Assembly (NCBI RefSeq): GCF_010728725.1
Contig: NZ_AP022606.1
Location: 3,472,001 to 3,536,000, forward strand
Source: Mycobacterium branderi
GTDB taxonomy: Bacteria > Actinomycetota > Actinomycetes > Mycobacteriales > Mycobacteriaceae
Length of the DNA: 64,000 bases
Direction of reading: 5' to 3'
Part shown: positions 32,809 through 40,239 of the stretch, one piece after another
How positions within the stretch are numbered: the first letter of the stretch is position 1
Layout of the letters: every line of letters begins with the position of its first letter
Notes under the pieces: generated by a model
Seen by the model: the letters and a program-made list of their open reading frames with translations, nothing else
What the model was told of the DNA's origin: nothing
Databases searched by the model: none
Position numbers and translations under genes: made by a program

Positions 32809-32891
32809 CCGGCATGCCACGCTCGCAGGTGACGTTGGTGCTGGTCACCCTGGTGGTGCTGGTGATCGTCACCTGGTGGCTGACGCGCTGA
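32805..32891 (+). CDS. 28-residue membrane peptide, coupled to the previous gene
   Basis: GTG 32805 overlaps the stop of the 64-residue protein (GTGA), and the frame encodes MTGMPRSQ followed by one hydrophobic helix (VTLVLVTLVVLVIVTWW) and LTR. The overlap, composition and clean end make a real peptide more likely than chance. Function unknown. It ends 15 bp before the -10 hexamer of the subI leader. Confidence 0.55.
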   Translation: MTGMPRSQVTLVLVTLVVLVIVTWWLTR

Positions 32892-32906
32892 TTCGGCGGA
32901 TTCTGT

Positions 32907-32912
32907 TAGGCT
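32907..32912 (+). promoter_or_regulatory. -10 element for the leaderless leader-peptide mRNA of the subI operon
   Basis: TAGGCT matches the mycobacterial -10 pattern TANNNT. Exactly 7 nt separate it from the ATG at 32920, the spacing expected if transcription starts on the A of that ATG. This predicts a leaderless transcript for the short cysteine-rich ORF. Confidence 0.65.
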
Positions 32913-32919
32913 TCGCGCC

Positions 32920-33012
32920 ATGCCTACAGCGACCGGCAACAAAGAGTGCTATGTCTTGGCGCTCATTGCCGTGGGGAATTGCGCTGTAGCCGACGTGCAC
33001 TGTTGTCGCTGA
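32920..33012 (+). CDS. Cysteine-rich leaderless short ORF upstream of subI (attenuator leader peptide)
   Basis: A 30-residue peptide with cysteines at positions 10, 21, 28 and 29, ending VHCCR and stop. The adjacent cysteine codons (33001-33006) lie at the end of the frame. Polycysteine leaderless short ORFs that regulate sulfur genes by ribosome stalling when Cys-tRNA is scarce are known in mycobacteria. This one has the expected signs: a leaderless -10, terminal Cys-Cys, a structured leader downstream, and a sulfate transport operon as target. The peptide itself probably has no function beyond being translated. Confidence 0.75.
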   Translation: MPTATGNKECYVLALIAVGNCAVADVHCCR

Positions 33013-33016
33013 CTGA

Positions 33017-33122
33017 AATACCCGCGCGCGGTCTGGCGTCGGAGTCGGCGGAATTCGGCAATTCAGACCTGAGCCTTTCCGGAGCGACGGGTATTGAGAT
33101 CCGAAAGCCCGGCACGGAAAGG
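33017..33122 (+). promoter_or_regulatory. Structured attenuator leader in front of subI
   Basis: Two 8-bp perfect inverted repeats interlock. AATACCCG (33017-33024) pairs with CGGGTATT (33088-33095), and CCTTTCCG (33074-33081) pairs with CGGAAAGG (33115-33122). The second pair buries the Shine-Dalgarno sequence GGAAAGG (33116-33122) of subI, whose ATG is at 33127. Because the arms cross, the two helices cannot both form except as a pseudoknot, which suggests alternative states. The first arm starts 5 nt after the leader-peptide stop, within reach of a ribosome stalled at the Cys-Cys codons. Which state a stalled ribosome favours is not clear by eye. Confidence 0.65.
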
Positions 33123-33126
33123 TCCA

Positions 33127-34155
33127 ATGCTCAACCTCGTCAAAGGTTCGTCGCGCGTCATCGCCCTCGCGCTCGGCGTCGGCGTGGTGGCGGCGTGCCA
33201 CGGTGGCGCCAGCGACGTCGTCGGCGGCGGCGGGCCCGGCGATGCGCGCACCAGCATCACGCTGGTCGCCTACTCGGCACCGGAACCGGGGTGGAGCAAG
33301 GTGATTCCGGCGTTCAACGCCTCACAGGAGGGCAAGGGCGTGCAGGTGATCACCTCCTACGGCGCCTCGGGCGACCAGTCGCGCGGCGTCGCCGCCGGCA
33401 AGCCCGCCGATATCGTCAACTTCTCGGTCGAACCCGACATCACCCGGCTTGTCAAGGCGGGCAAGGTTTCCAAGGATTGGGACAAAGACGCCACCAAGGG
33501 CATTCCGTTCGGTTCGGTGGTGACGTTGGTGGTGCGGCAGGGCAATCCGAAAAACATCAAGGACTGGGACGATTTACTGAGGCCCGGCGTGGAAGTCATC
33601 ACACCAAGCCCGTTGAGTTCGGGGTCGGCGAAATGGAATCTGCTGGCTCCCTACGCGGTCAAGAGCGAGGGTGGGCGAAATCCTCAGGCGGGCGTGGACT
33701 TCGTCGACAAACTGGTGAGCCAACACGTCAAATTGCGCCCGGGCTCGGGGCGCGAGGCCACCGACGTGTTCGTCCAGGGCAGCGGCGACGTGCTGATCAG
33801 TTACGAGAACGAGGCCATCGCCACTGAGCGGCAAGGCAAGCCGATCACCCACGTCAACCCGCCGCAGACCTTCAAAATCGAGAACCCGCTGGCGGTGGTG
33901 ACCAACAGCACCCACCTGGACACCGCGACCGCGTTCAAGAACTTTCAGTACACCGAGCAGGCTCAGAAGATTTGGGCGCAGGCCGGTTTCCGTCCCGTCG
34001 ACCCGGCCGTCGCCGCCGAGGTTCGCGGCCAGTTCCCGGTGCCGCTCAAGCTGTGGACGATCACCGATCTGGGCGGCTGGGACACCGTGGATCCACGGCT
34101 GTTCGACAAGAACAGCGGCAGCATCACCGGAATCTACATGCGGGCCACCGGATGA
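33127..34155 (+). CDS. subI: Sulfate-binding lipoprotein of the sulfate ABC importer
   Basis: A 342-residue periplasmic-type binding protein. The signal peptide ends in a lipobox (VVAAC, modified Cys24), so it is anchored on the outer face of the membrane. The mature part has the sulfate-binding family pattern: LVAYSAPEPGWSKVIPAFN, TSYGASGDQSRGVAAGKPADIVNFS, ITPSPLSSGSAKWN, DVLISYENEAI. It delivers sulfate (and probably thiosulfate) to CysT-CysW-CysA. ATG 33127 is chosen because GGAAAGG lies just before it and it gives a proper signal peptide. cysT follows after 46 bp with its own GAGGAGGAG site. Confidence 0.93.
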   Translation: MLNLVKGSSRVIALALGVGVVAACHGGASDVVGGGGPGDARTSITLVAYSAPEPGWSKVIPAFNASQEGKGVQVITSYGASGDQSRGVAAGKPADIVNFSVEPDITRLVKAGKVSKDWDKDATKGIPFGSVVTLVVRQGNPKNIKDWDDLLRPGVEVITPSPLSSGSAKWNLLAPYAVKSEGGRNPQAGVDFVDKLVSQHVKLRPGSGREATDVFVQGSGDVLISYENEAIATERQGKPITHVNPPQTFKIENPLAVVTNSTHLDTATAFKNFQYTEQAQKIWAQAGFRPVDPAVAAEVRGQFPVPLKLWTITDLGGWDTVDPRLFDKNSGSITGIYMRATG

Positions 34156-34201: not shown

Positions 34202-35032
34202 ATGACGACGGCGACGCTGACACCCAATCTGAGCGCCGCGCGCCGCGGCGGCACATCGCTGCGCGTCGGGGTGGCGATGGGGTGGCTGTCGGTGATTGTG
34301 CTGCTGCCGTTAGCCGCGATCGGCTGGCAAGCCGTCGGCGGCGGCTGGCGTGCGTTTTGGCTGGCGGTCAGCTCCAATGCCGCGCTGGAGTCGTTCCGGG
34401 TGACGCTGACGATTTCGGCCGGGGTCACGCTGTTGAACCTGGTGTTCGGCATGTTGATCGCCTGGGTGCTGGTACGCGACGATTTCCCGGGCAAGCGCCT
34501 GATCGACACCATCATCGACCTGCCGTTCGCGTTACCGACCATCGTCGCCAGCCTGGTGATGCTGGCGCTTTATGGTCCGCACAGTCCGGTCGGCCTGCAT
34601 CTGCAACACACCGGCTGGGGTGTGGCGGTGGCTCTGGCGTTCGTCACGCTGCCGTTCGTGGTGCGTGCCGTGCAGCCGGTGCTGCTCGAAATCGACCGCG
34701 AGGCCGAGGAAGCGGCGGCGTCGCTGGGCGCCAACAACGCGACGATCTTCACGTCGGTGGTGCTGCCGTCGCTGACGCCTTCGCTGTTGTCCGGTGCGGG
34801 GCTGGCGTTTTCGCGGGCCATCGGTGAGTTCGGCTCGGTCGTCCTGATCGGTGGAGCGGTGCCCGGGAAAACCGAAGTGTCCTCGCAGTGGATCCGCACC
34901 TTGATCGAGAACGACGACCGCACCGGGGCCGCTGCGATATCGATTGTGCTGCTGGGCATTTCGTTCGTGGTGCTGTTCATCCTACGCACGTTGGGGGCGC
35001 GCGCGGCCAAGCGTGAGGAGTTGTCGGTATGA
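34202..35032 (+). CDS. cysT: Sulfate ABC transporter permease CysT
   Basis: A 276-residue permease with about six membrane helices. The cytoplasmic EAA loop ([27 protein letters not shown], about residues 162-188) contacts the ATPase. The N-terminal extension is short and polar. It forms the channel with CysW. It starts at ATG 34202 after a strong GAGGAGGAG site, and its stop overlaps the cysW start (ATGA). Confidence 0.93.
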
Positions 35033-35844
35033 CGACCTCGCCGCGCGTCCGCTATGTGCTGCGCTCCGTCGCGCTCGGTTATATCGCCGTGCTGCTGATC
35101 GTGCCGGTGGCGCTGATCCTGTGGCGCACCTTGTCGCCCGGCCTTGGTCAGTTCTATGCCTGGGTCAGCACTCCCGCGGCGATCTCGGCGCTGCAGCTGT
35201 CGCTGCTGGTGGTCGCGATCGTGGTGCCGCTGAACGTGATCTTCGGCATCCCGACGGCATTGATGCTGGCGCGCAATCGGTTCCGCGGCAAGGGTTTGCT
35301 GCAAGCAATCATCGACCTGCCGTTCGCCGTCTCACCCGTCATCGTGGGCGTGGCGCTGATCGTGCTGTGGGGATCGGCCGGCGTGCTGGGCTTCGTGGAG
35401 CGAGATCTCGGACTGAAGATCATCTTCAGTCTGCCGGGAATCGTGCTCGCCAGTGTTTTCGTCACGCTGCCGTTCGTGGTCCGCGAAGTCGAACCGGTGT
35501 TGCACGAACTTGGCACCGATCAGGAAGAGGCGGCGGCAACGCTGGGTTCGTCGTGGTGGCAGACGTTTTGGCGGATCACATTGCCGTCCATCCGGTGGGG
35601 ACTGACCTACGGCATCGTGCTGACCATTGCCCGAACGCTCGGCGAGTACGGCGCGGTCCTGATGGTGTCGTCGAATCTGCCGGGGAAATCGCAGACATTG
35701 ACGCTGCTGGTATCCGACCGCTACAACCGGGGCGCCGAGTACGGTGCCTACGCGTTGTCGACATTGCTGATGGCGGTATCGGTGGTAGTGCTGATCGTCC
35801 AGGTGCTGCTGGACGTCCGGCGGGTAGGCAAGGAGGTCGCATGA
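35029..35844 (+). CDS. cysW: Sulfate ABC transporter permease CysW
   Basis: A 271-residue permease paralogous to CysT. Six helices are visible. [17 protein letters not shown] is typical of CysW, and the EAA loop is [27 protein letters not shown] (about residues 160-186). It overlaps cysT upstream and cysA downstream by 4 nt each (ATGA), so the three proteins are translated together in matched amounts. Confidence 0.93.
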
Positions 35845-36878
35845 CCAACAACGCGATCATCGTGCAGGGCGCCAACAAGCGCCATGGCAACTTCGTCGCG
35901 CTCGACAACGTCGACTTTACGGTTCCCGCCGGCTCGCTGACGGCGCTGCTGGGCCCCAGTGGATCCGGCAAGTCGACGCTGCTACGCGCCATCGCCGGAC
36001 TCGACCAGCCCGACACCGGAACCATCACGATCAACGGCCGCGACGTCACCCGGGTGCCGCCGCAGCGGCGCGGCATCGGATTCGTGTTCCAGCACTACGC
36101 AGCGTTCAAGCATTTGACTGTGCGCGACAACGTCGCGTTCGGGTTGAAGATCCGTCGCCGGCCGAAGGCCGAGATCACCAAGAAGGTGGACAACCTGCTG
36201 GAAGTGGTGGGGCTCAGCGGATTTCAGGACCGTTACCCCAACCAGCTCTCCGGCGGGCAGCGTCAGCGGATGGCACTGGCTCGCGCGCTGGCCGTCGACC
36301 CCCAGGTGCTGCTGCTCGACGAGCCGTTCGGCGCGCTGGACGCCAAAGTCCGCGAGGATCTGCGGGCCTGGCTACGCCGACTGCACGACGAGGTGCATGT
36401 CACCACCGTGCTGGTGACCCACGACCAGGCCGAGGCGCTCGACGTCGCCGACCGCATCGCGGTGCTCAACAAGGGCCACATCGAGCAGGTCGGGTCGCCG
36501 GCCGAGGTCTACGACACCCCGGCGAACGCCTTCGTCATGTCGTTTCTGGGAGCGGTGTCGTCGCTGAACGGCACTCTCGTCCGGCCGCACGACATCCGCG
36601 TCGGCCGCAGACCCGATATGAAGATCGCCGCCAGCGACGCCGCCGCCGAGTCCGCCGGCGTCGTTCGCGCCACCATCGATCGGGTGGTCATGCTGGGCTT
36701 CGAAGTTCGCGTGGAATTGACCAACGCCGCCACCGGCGGGCCGTTCACCGCACAGATCACCCGCGGCGACGCCGAGGCGTTGGCCCTGCGGGAGGGGGAC
36801 ACCGTCTACGTGGCCGCCACCCGGGTACCGCCGATCGCGGGGGAAGTCAGTGCACCGGTAGCCGACGCGTTGGCGTAG
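35841..36878 (+). CDS. cysA: Sulfate ABC transporter ATP-binding protein CysA
   Basis: A 345-residue ATPase driving sulfate uptake. Walker A is GPSGSGKST (about residues 35-43), the Q-loop is [14 protein letters not shown], the signature is LSGGQRQR, and Walker B is [11 protein letters not shown], followed by the H-loop histidine in [14 protein letters not shown]. The C-terminal 100 residues form a TOBE-like regulatory domain ([15 protein letters not shown]). AAGGAGG precedes ATG 35841, which overlaps the cysW stop. A hairpin follows the gene. Confidence 0.95.
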
Positions 36879-40143: not shown

Positions 40144-40239
40144 TCAAGGCAGACAGCGACAGCTGCAGACACGCTTGAGATCGATGTGCCGGCGCGCAAC
40201 CAGGGCAACCCCAGACTCGGTGCAATAGGCGACGGTCAC
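40144..40239 (-). CDS. Cysteine-rich leaderless short ORF upstream of nirA (attenuator leader peptide)
   Basis: A 31-residue frame from GTG 40239 whose last residues are VCSCRCLP (cysteines 25, 27, 29, with one more at 6). The closely spaced cysteine codons at the end match the known mycobacterial polycysteine leader ORFs that derepress sulfur genes when cysteine is low. It is followed by 114 nt of leader with a hairpin over the nirA ribosome site. It has no sequence similarity to the subI leader peptide apart from the terminal cysteines, so codon content rather than peptide sequence is conserved. Confidence 0.75.
   Translation of the reverse strand: MTVAYCTESGVALVARRHIDLKRVCSCRCLP

Follow-up and report, generated by a model that had tools for sequence, protein, structure and literature searches.

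What does a short reading frame with a cysteine-rich tail do in front of a sulfate importer operon, and is the RNA between this frame and the first gene of the operon part of its function? The redox balance of mycobacteria depends centrally on the supply of sulfur. Canestrari et al. 2020 reportedly deals with polycysteine leaderless short ORFs (sORFs). For mycobacterial cys operons, leader peptides with Cys runs were proposed by Seliverstov et al. 2005 (PMC1262725); this survey of actinobacterial leaders lists them as attenuators some of whose parts are missing. Similar leaders were also proposed for cysA2, Rv0485 and nirA in 2015 (PMC4633059). Canestrari et al. 2020 is cited for cysteine-dependent control in M. 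smegmatis (PMC13236596, PMC9031893), and likely counterparts of the leaders of that study have been named in M. tuberculosis, six ORFs in all (PMC9094748). We studied one such leader in a 64,000-nt stretch of the Mycobacterium branderi genome (5.98 Mb), referred to as the window, and compared it with its relatives.

The leader precedes the sulfate importer operon subI-cysT-cysW-cysA, and all four genes score above the curated NCBIfam cut-offs.

32907..32912, plus strand: TANNNT, a hexamer of the -10 type (TAGGCT), with a 7-nt spacer to the ATG at 32920; from the sequence
32920..33012, plus strand: leader sORF of 30 amino acids, Ms4533A family; from the sequence and NF042937 (54.9 bits, cut-off 31)
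33127..34155, plus strand: subI, sulfate-binding protein of the importer; TIGR00971 (159.8 bits, cut-off 155.5)
34202..35032, plus strand: cysT, permease; TIGR02139 (269.7 bits, cut-off 246.1)
35029..35844, plus strand: cysW, permease; TIGR02140 (371.8 bits, cut-off 329.1)
35838..36878, plus strand: cysA, ATPase (start approximate); TIGR00968 (422 bits, cut-off 342.75)

The hexamer stands exactly 7 nt before the ATG, as the original prediction stated. From this hexamer and its spacing, which are sequence features only, transcription is expected to start at or beside 32920, i.e., the sORF would be leaderless. A consensus scan demanding both -35 and -10 hexamers returned no promoter in 32850-33300, so the promoter call is made from the hexamer and the spacing. 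The single terminator-like site of the same region lies at 32886, upstream of the sORF. None was found between the sORF and subI, where a transcription attenuator of the trp type would have its intrinsic terminator.

The sORF product, MPTATGNKECYVLALIAVGNCAVADVHCCR, ends with His-Cys-Cys-Arg before the stop codon TGA (33010-33012), and the expected 30-codon frame is thus present as described. The leader peptide is of an already known kind because it belongs to the NCBIfam family of Ms4533A Cys-rich leader peptides (NF042937), in agreement with its earlier placement among the mycobacterial Cys leaders. When the order was searched with the Ms4533A profile, 23 of 249 genomes scored above the cut-off, including one that belongs to a different family of this order; all 14 control genomes stayed below it. 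Four leader peptides were searched against Pfam and matched no family. A polycysteine pattern was uninformative in the genome itself (215 matches vs 232 for the reversed control).

SubI relatives are present in 246 of the 248 genomes of the genus, including the genome studied. Among the SubI matches listed we took 130 loci of the genus (30, and 100 more chosen from those next in order). We mostly left out second copies of the gene (L080 and L085 are such copies) and also at least two first copies; more distant species are under-sampled since the loci come from the listed matches only. We dropped L017 and L116, where no sORF was found, and L091, whose frame lacks the usual tail, which left 127 sORFs; L126 is identical to L118 in the aligned stretch, so the alignment (A1) includes 126 leaders. 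The sample from other genera (L144-L169) consists of 26 loci from 12 genera with the closest SubI relatives, out of 65 matched genomes of other genera.

A script pattern (Cys-tailed sORF, TANNNT 5-8 nt ahead of the start codon) fitted 127 of the 130 subI upstream regions of the genus. Of these 127, 120 have a spacing of 7 nt, six of 6 nt, and one of 8 nt. The start codon is ATG in 125 sORFs, the stop codon is TGA in 125, and 85 sORFs end with HCCR. The second subI copies in two genomes (L080, MYAASDALVCCFVMGCCR; L085, MQPTTGVSQRCAVACCCR) are also preceded by Cys-tailed sORFs, and the frame in L091 extends beyond the usual tail. An apparent ORF VDTHSDSRPHRPLCYSL... in L161 and similar ones were set aside as being out of frame with the real sORF.

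The codons of the tail differ from other cysteine codons.

33001..33006, plus strand: the two Cys codons of the tail, UGU UGU, putative regulatory codons; codon bias in relatives

Within the last four residues of the 127 sORFs, Cys is encoded by TGT 258 times and by TGC 13 times (258 of 271 codons), whereas the Cys codons outside the tail of the same sORFs are 20 TGT and 122 TGC (122 of 142); Fisher's test gives p = 6e-67 with relatedness ignored, as it is in all percentage figures here. Genes of the window (31 ORFs with high GC3) contain 30 TGT and 151 TGC codons, and the tail codons of the examined sORFs from other genera are 34 TGT and 1 TGC. A single tRNA-Cys with the GCA anticodon would decode UGU by wobble. 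The simplest reason for the bias is slow decoding that is sensitive to tRNA charging; a reason at the RNA level is also conceivable.

Beyond the stop codon, the leader contains three strands and the subI Shine-Dalgarno (SD) sequence.

33017..33036, plus strand: S2, anti-sequestor strand, AAUACCCGCGCGCGGUCUGG; S2:S3 duplex of 16 bp, -22.8 kcal/mol; covariation
33073..33095, plus strand: S3, shared strand, anti-SD CCUUUCCG plus CGGGUAUU; inverted repeats, alignment and covariation
33106..33124, plus strand: S4, sequestor strand including the SD, AGCCCGGCACGGAAAGGUC; S3:S4 duplex, -25.7 kcal/mol; covariation
33116..33122, plus strand: subI SD, GGAAAGG; from the sequence

Two exact 8-bp inverted repeats, 33017-33024/33088-33095 (AATACCCG/CGGGTATT) and 33074-33081/33115-33122 (CCTTTCCG/CGGAAAGG), cross each other, and the second covers the whole SD; both claims of the original prediction were thus confirmed. 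In 5000 dinucleotide shuffles of 33013-33129 the mean number of perfect 8-bp repeats is 0.157; 540 shuffles have one or more repeats, 153 have two or more, and only seven have a crossing pair. The fold of 32920-33180 as a whole does not stand out from its shuffles (z = -0.35; 78 of 200 are at least as stable). Searches against Rfam yielded nothing in the window at gathering scores, and in 32880-33200 nothing up to E 10.

In the 126 aligned leaders, the conserved blocks after the sORF are CCCGyxCGCGGUCUGG directly after the stop codon (S2), CCUUUCCGxxGCxACGGG (S3), and mostly CCCGCAC followed by GGAAGG or GAAAGG (S4). S3 is complementary to both S2 and S4. The 8-bp cores are therefore parts of longer helices, S2:S3 and S3:S4, that have the strand S3 in common. 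The cores occupy different bases of S3, while the extended duplexes exclude each other over most of it. Since the extended helices compete for S3 including the anti-SD, the geometry is that of a choice between sequestor and anti-sequestor. Hence the crossing of the cores stands, but a pseudoknot, which had been thought possible, is not the best reading. The median energies of the cognate duplexes are balanced (-19.2 kcal/mol for S2:S3 and -19.4 kcal/mol for S3:S4 in the 126 leaders).

Three loci deviate in these elements. L005 has a single tail Cys (HCRR) and an S2 without CCCG; L116 retains S3 and S4, and no sORF is seen there; in L017 only S4 is kept, with no sORF, S2 or S3 seen. Apart from the window's own leader, a model of the leader RNA matched the genome studied at 11 places with E up to 10, all of them weakly (best E 0.06); the matches at L171 and L172 have E 0.06 and 0.08.

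The covariation of both helices is supported at the level of clades. Column by column, it is weak: six pairs changed on both sides (shuffles, 6.5) and 22 further pair types (shuffles, 22.6), although paired cells exceed the shuffles (0 of 500 reach the observed value) and so does the score (5 of 500). This result is modest because the cores hardly vary. We therefore compared the energies of cognate duplexes with those of duplexes swapped between clades (126 leaders, 5000 permutations, 38, 19 or 8 clusters). At 38, 19 and 8 clusters, respectively, p is 0/5000, 0.0002 and 0.0018 for S2:S3, and 0.0022, 0/5000 and 0.0052 for S3:S4. The control pairings are null (p 0.32-0.75 for S1:S2, 0.80-0.95 for S1:S3, and 0.11-0.17 for S2:S4). 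A protector helix S1:S2 as in trp was accordingly dropped: its median energy of -13.1 is plausible, but it does not covary. Judged by the longest uninterrupted helix, S2:S3 occurs in 60 forms and S3:S4 in 62, counts that have no null of their own. Among the S2:S3 forms are CCCGUC/GACGGG, CCCGUG/CACGGG, CCCGC/GCGGG, CCGUCGG/CCGACGG, CCCA/UGGG, and AAUACCCG/CGGGUAUU, and in some leaders the longest S2:S3 helix sits in another register.

The SD complement alone was dropped as evidence. In the window it beats the shuffles (0 of 200 reach it), and only 13 of the 127 leaders do so at p 0.05. With the SD complement near chance in most single leaders, the case for the structure is built on conservation and covariation. 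Among leaders from other genera, 3 of 19 beat the shuffles, so we claim the S2/S3/S4 structure for the genus only.

How could a ribosome on the sORF affect these helices? We gave the ribosome the textbook reach of 16 nt from its P-site codon. With this reach, its front edge lies at about the stop codon when it stands at the first tail Cys codon, and about 10 nt further when it stands at the stop codon. The first paired base of S2 lies 8 nt past the stop codon in the median leader (10-90% range 5-10) and 5 nt past it in the window. In computed folds of leaders cut before S4, a ribosome placed at the first tail Cys codon gives an expected five or more S2:S3 pairs in 125 of 126 leaders, and one placed at the second does so in all 126. 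The numbers are 106 with the ribosome at the stop codon, 78 without a ribosome, and 68 without a ribosome when the 5' part is shorter. In 119 of 126 leaders the stalled state gains more than one pair over the stop position (the reverse holds in one), and in 73 it gains as much over the ribosome-free state (the reverse in none). Base-by-base shuffling of S2 gives a mean of 66.4 of 126 leaders, and in 79 leaders the real S2 is better than each of its five shuffles.

The full-length leader behaves differently at equilibrium. The SD is fully open in the minimum free energy (MFE) fold of none of the 127 leaders in any of five ribosome states. Relative to a ribosome stalled at the first tail Cys codon, the ribosome-free state raises the mean cost of opening the SD by 0.54-0.56 kcal/mol, and in this comparison the cost is more than 0.5 lower in 26-27 of 127 leaders. 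Compared with the first tail Cys codon, the stop codon gives a cost that is on average 0.17 kcal/mol lower, which is opposite to the switch model (more than 0.5 lower in 34 of 127 leaders, higher in 25). S3:S4 wins at equilibrium in most leaders: at least five S3:S4 pairs form in 88 of 126 leaders with a stalled ribosome, 96 with a ribosome at the stop codon, and 94 without a ribosome, vs 21, 15 and 13 for S2:S3. A simple choice between the helices at equilibrium, set by the stalled ribosome, is thus not supported. The expected response is seen only in the computed folding before S4 is made, and if there is a switch, it is kinetic. The computed features of a translational attenuator are a masked SD (fully open in no leader of the 127) and a conserved competitor of the masking helix.

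The window itself provides a point against a simple switch model. Its leader cut before S4 forms 15.3 S2:S3 pairs without a ribosome and 15.4 with a stalled one, 8.1 with a shorter 5' part, and 3.1 with the ribosome at the stop codon. Because the ribosome-free truncated leader forms S2:S3, the off state would need slow release of the ribosome or a later rearrangement. The segments 32976-32995 and 33037-33056 (within the sORF and after S2, respectively) are 75% complementary over 20 nt, and this pairing joins the ribosome-free fold of the window.

With little more than even confidence, we lean towards reading the leaderless Ms4533A-type leader as a cysteine-responsive translational attenuator of subI-cysTWA, trp-like and probably kinetic. 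Transcription would start at or next to the ATG, and ribosomes would translate the sORF. When Cys-tRNA is scarce, the ribosome would wait at UGU UGU with its front edge near the stop codon and S2 free. Free S2 would capture S3, including the anti-SD, once S3 is transcribed, and the SD in S4 would stay open long enough for initiation at subI. When Cys-tRNA is plentiful, the ribosome would reach the stop codon and cover the first part of S2, or leave; with S2 covered, S3 would pair with S4 and the SD would be hidden.

The sORF also carries a peptide signal apart from its tail.

32959..32976, plus strand: codons 14-19, ALIAVG, selection at the amino-acid level; pN/pS 0.07 in 39 sORFs of exactly 30 codons
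32983..32997, plus strand: codons 22-26, AVADV, selection at the amino-acid level; pN/pS 0.04

In the same 39 sORFs, which were chosen by length alone, pN/pS (relatedness ignored) is 0.86 for codons 2-9, 0.36 for codons 10-13, 0.90 for codons 20-21, and 0.53 for codons 27-30; ALIAVG is present in 38 of them. The core of the long form is under selection on amino acids, not on bases. The long form fits 41 of the 127 mycobacterial sORFs, and in many other mycobacteria the peptide is shorter or diverged with the tail kept. The motif (R/S)HxLAL(I/F)x(V/I)G and a VAD stretch precede subI in 25 of the 26 loci from other genera (12 genera of the same family); as these sequences were picked by motif, invariance inside the motifs is by construction, and we counted only codons outside them, which gave pN/pS 0.13 for AVAD(V/I). 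The tail contains a single Cys in 15 of these 25 copies. With the first tail Cys codon in the A site, the core residues are about 2-14 positions back from the peptidyl-transferase centre, and tunnel contacts of arrest peptides are known from such distances.

A role of the nascent peptide is possible because the core is selected and 15 of the 25 sister-genus copies have one Cys. It might be the whole mechanism: the core ALIAVGxxAVADV in the exit tunnel would pause the ribosome at the following Cys codon, and the Cys run would be a later addition in some mycobacteria. The sharp drop of pN/pS in the core and the motif shared with other genera favor this explanation, but the long pattern is found in a minority of the mycobacterial sORFs, leaders with shorter or diverged sORFs are aligned over S2-S4 as well, the UGU bias speaks for decoding speed, and the arrest is putative, so that we consider it unlikely. 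We give somewhat more credit, still tentatively, to a combined history in which the ancestral Ms4533A leader was a nascent-peptide sensor. Its core RHxLALIAVGxxAVAD[VI]x and one wobble-decoded UGU would cause a pause when cysteine is short and thereby drive the S2/S3/S4 anti-sequestor switch; some mycobacteria would have lost the core and kept the bare UGU UGU tail. The family would then preserve the transition from an attenuator assisted by its peptide to one based purely on codons.

Two further explanations concern the RNA. If the leader is a Rho-dependent attenuator, enough cysteine would release the ribosome, about 110 nt of naked RNA would let Rho stop transcription before subI, a stalled or slow ribosome would hinder Rho, and the helices would be secondary. 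This was proposed for mycobacterial cys leaders by Seliverstov et al. 2005 with no terminator hairpin seen (PMC1262725), and the interval between the sORF and subI is likewise free of terminator-like sites; but the cited text rates its own Rho-site prediction as rather weak, and an anti-SD strand covarying with both S2 and S4 is left without a reason, which makes Rho an improbable explanation. A constitutive hairpin, with S3:S4 merely lowering subI translation and the sORF having no regulatory link, agrees with the SD being fully open in no equilibrium MFE fold and with the small effect of the ribosome position there. We regard it as very improbable, since the S2:S3 covariation, the Cys tail in 127 of 130 loci, and the UGU choice confined to the tail are unexplained by it.

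A trp-type attenuator combines end-product codons in a leader peptide with a strand past the stop codon and two competing helices. The translational attenuator proposed here is alike in its end-product codons, in a strand past the stop codon that is free on stalling and partly covered at the stop, and in competing helices. It differs in that its output would be masking of the SD, in having no terminator-like site between the sORF and the gene, and in a 1:2 protector without covariation. With the Ms4533A family and the polycysteine leaderless sORFs it shares the profile, the sulfate importer downstream, the promoter spacing of the leaderless type, and the Cys tail. The names Ms4533A and Ms4527A presumably come from Canestrari et al. 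2020; the names of the three leaders were not found in the literature searched. The cys leaders of Seliverstov et al. 2005 (PMC1262725) are also short ORFs with Cys-codon runs near the stop codon before cys operons, but that paper calls other attenuator elements missing, whereas we put forward two alternative helices. Apart from Canestrari et al. 2020, which may describe part of the switch, the UGU rule or the peptide selection, we found none of the three (S2/S3/S4 pairing, UGU rule, peptide-level selection) in the portions of the mycobacterial Cys-leader literature compared. With the alternative helices, the tail-confined codon choice and the selected peptide core, the gap of 2005 becomes three claims that can be tested one by one. 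The long and short leader forms offer a natural comparison of peptide-based and codon-based sensing.

The same window contains a second Cys-rich sORF of the leaderless type, located before nirA (40144-40239, minus strand, GTG start, VTVAYCTESGVALVARRHIDLKRVCSCRCLP). It matches the Ms4527A family (NF042936; 50.9 bits, cut-off 45; peptide RRHIDLKRVCSCRCLP), which is by name of the same regulatory class, a Cys-rich leader peptide too, but has another peptide and another leader. Just before the nirA start, the sequence CTCC-GCAAA-GGAG could fold over the nirA SD.
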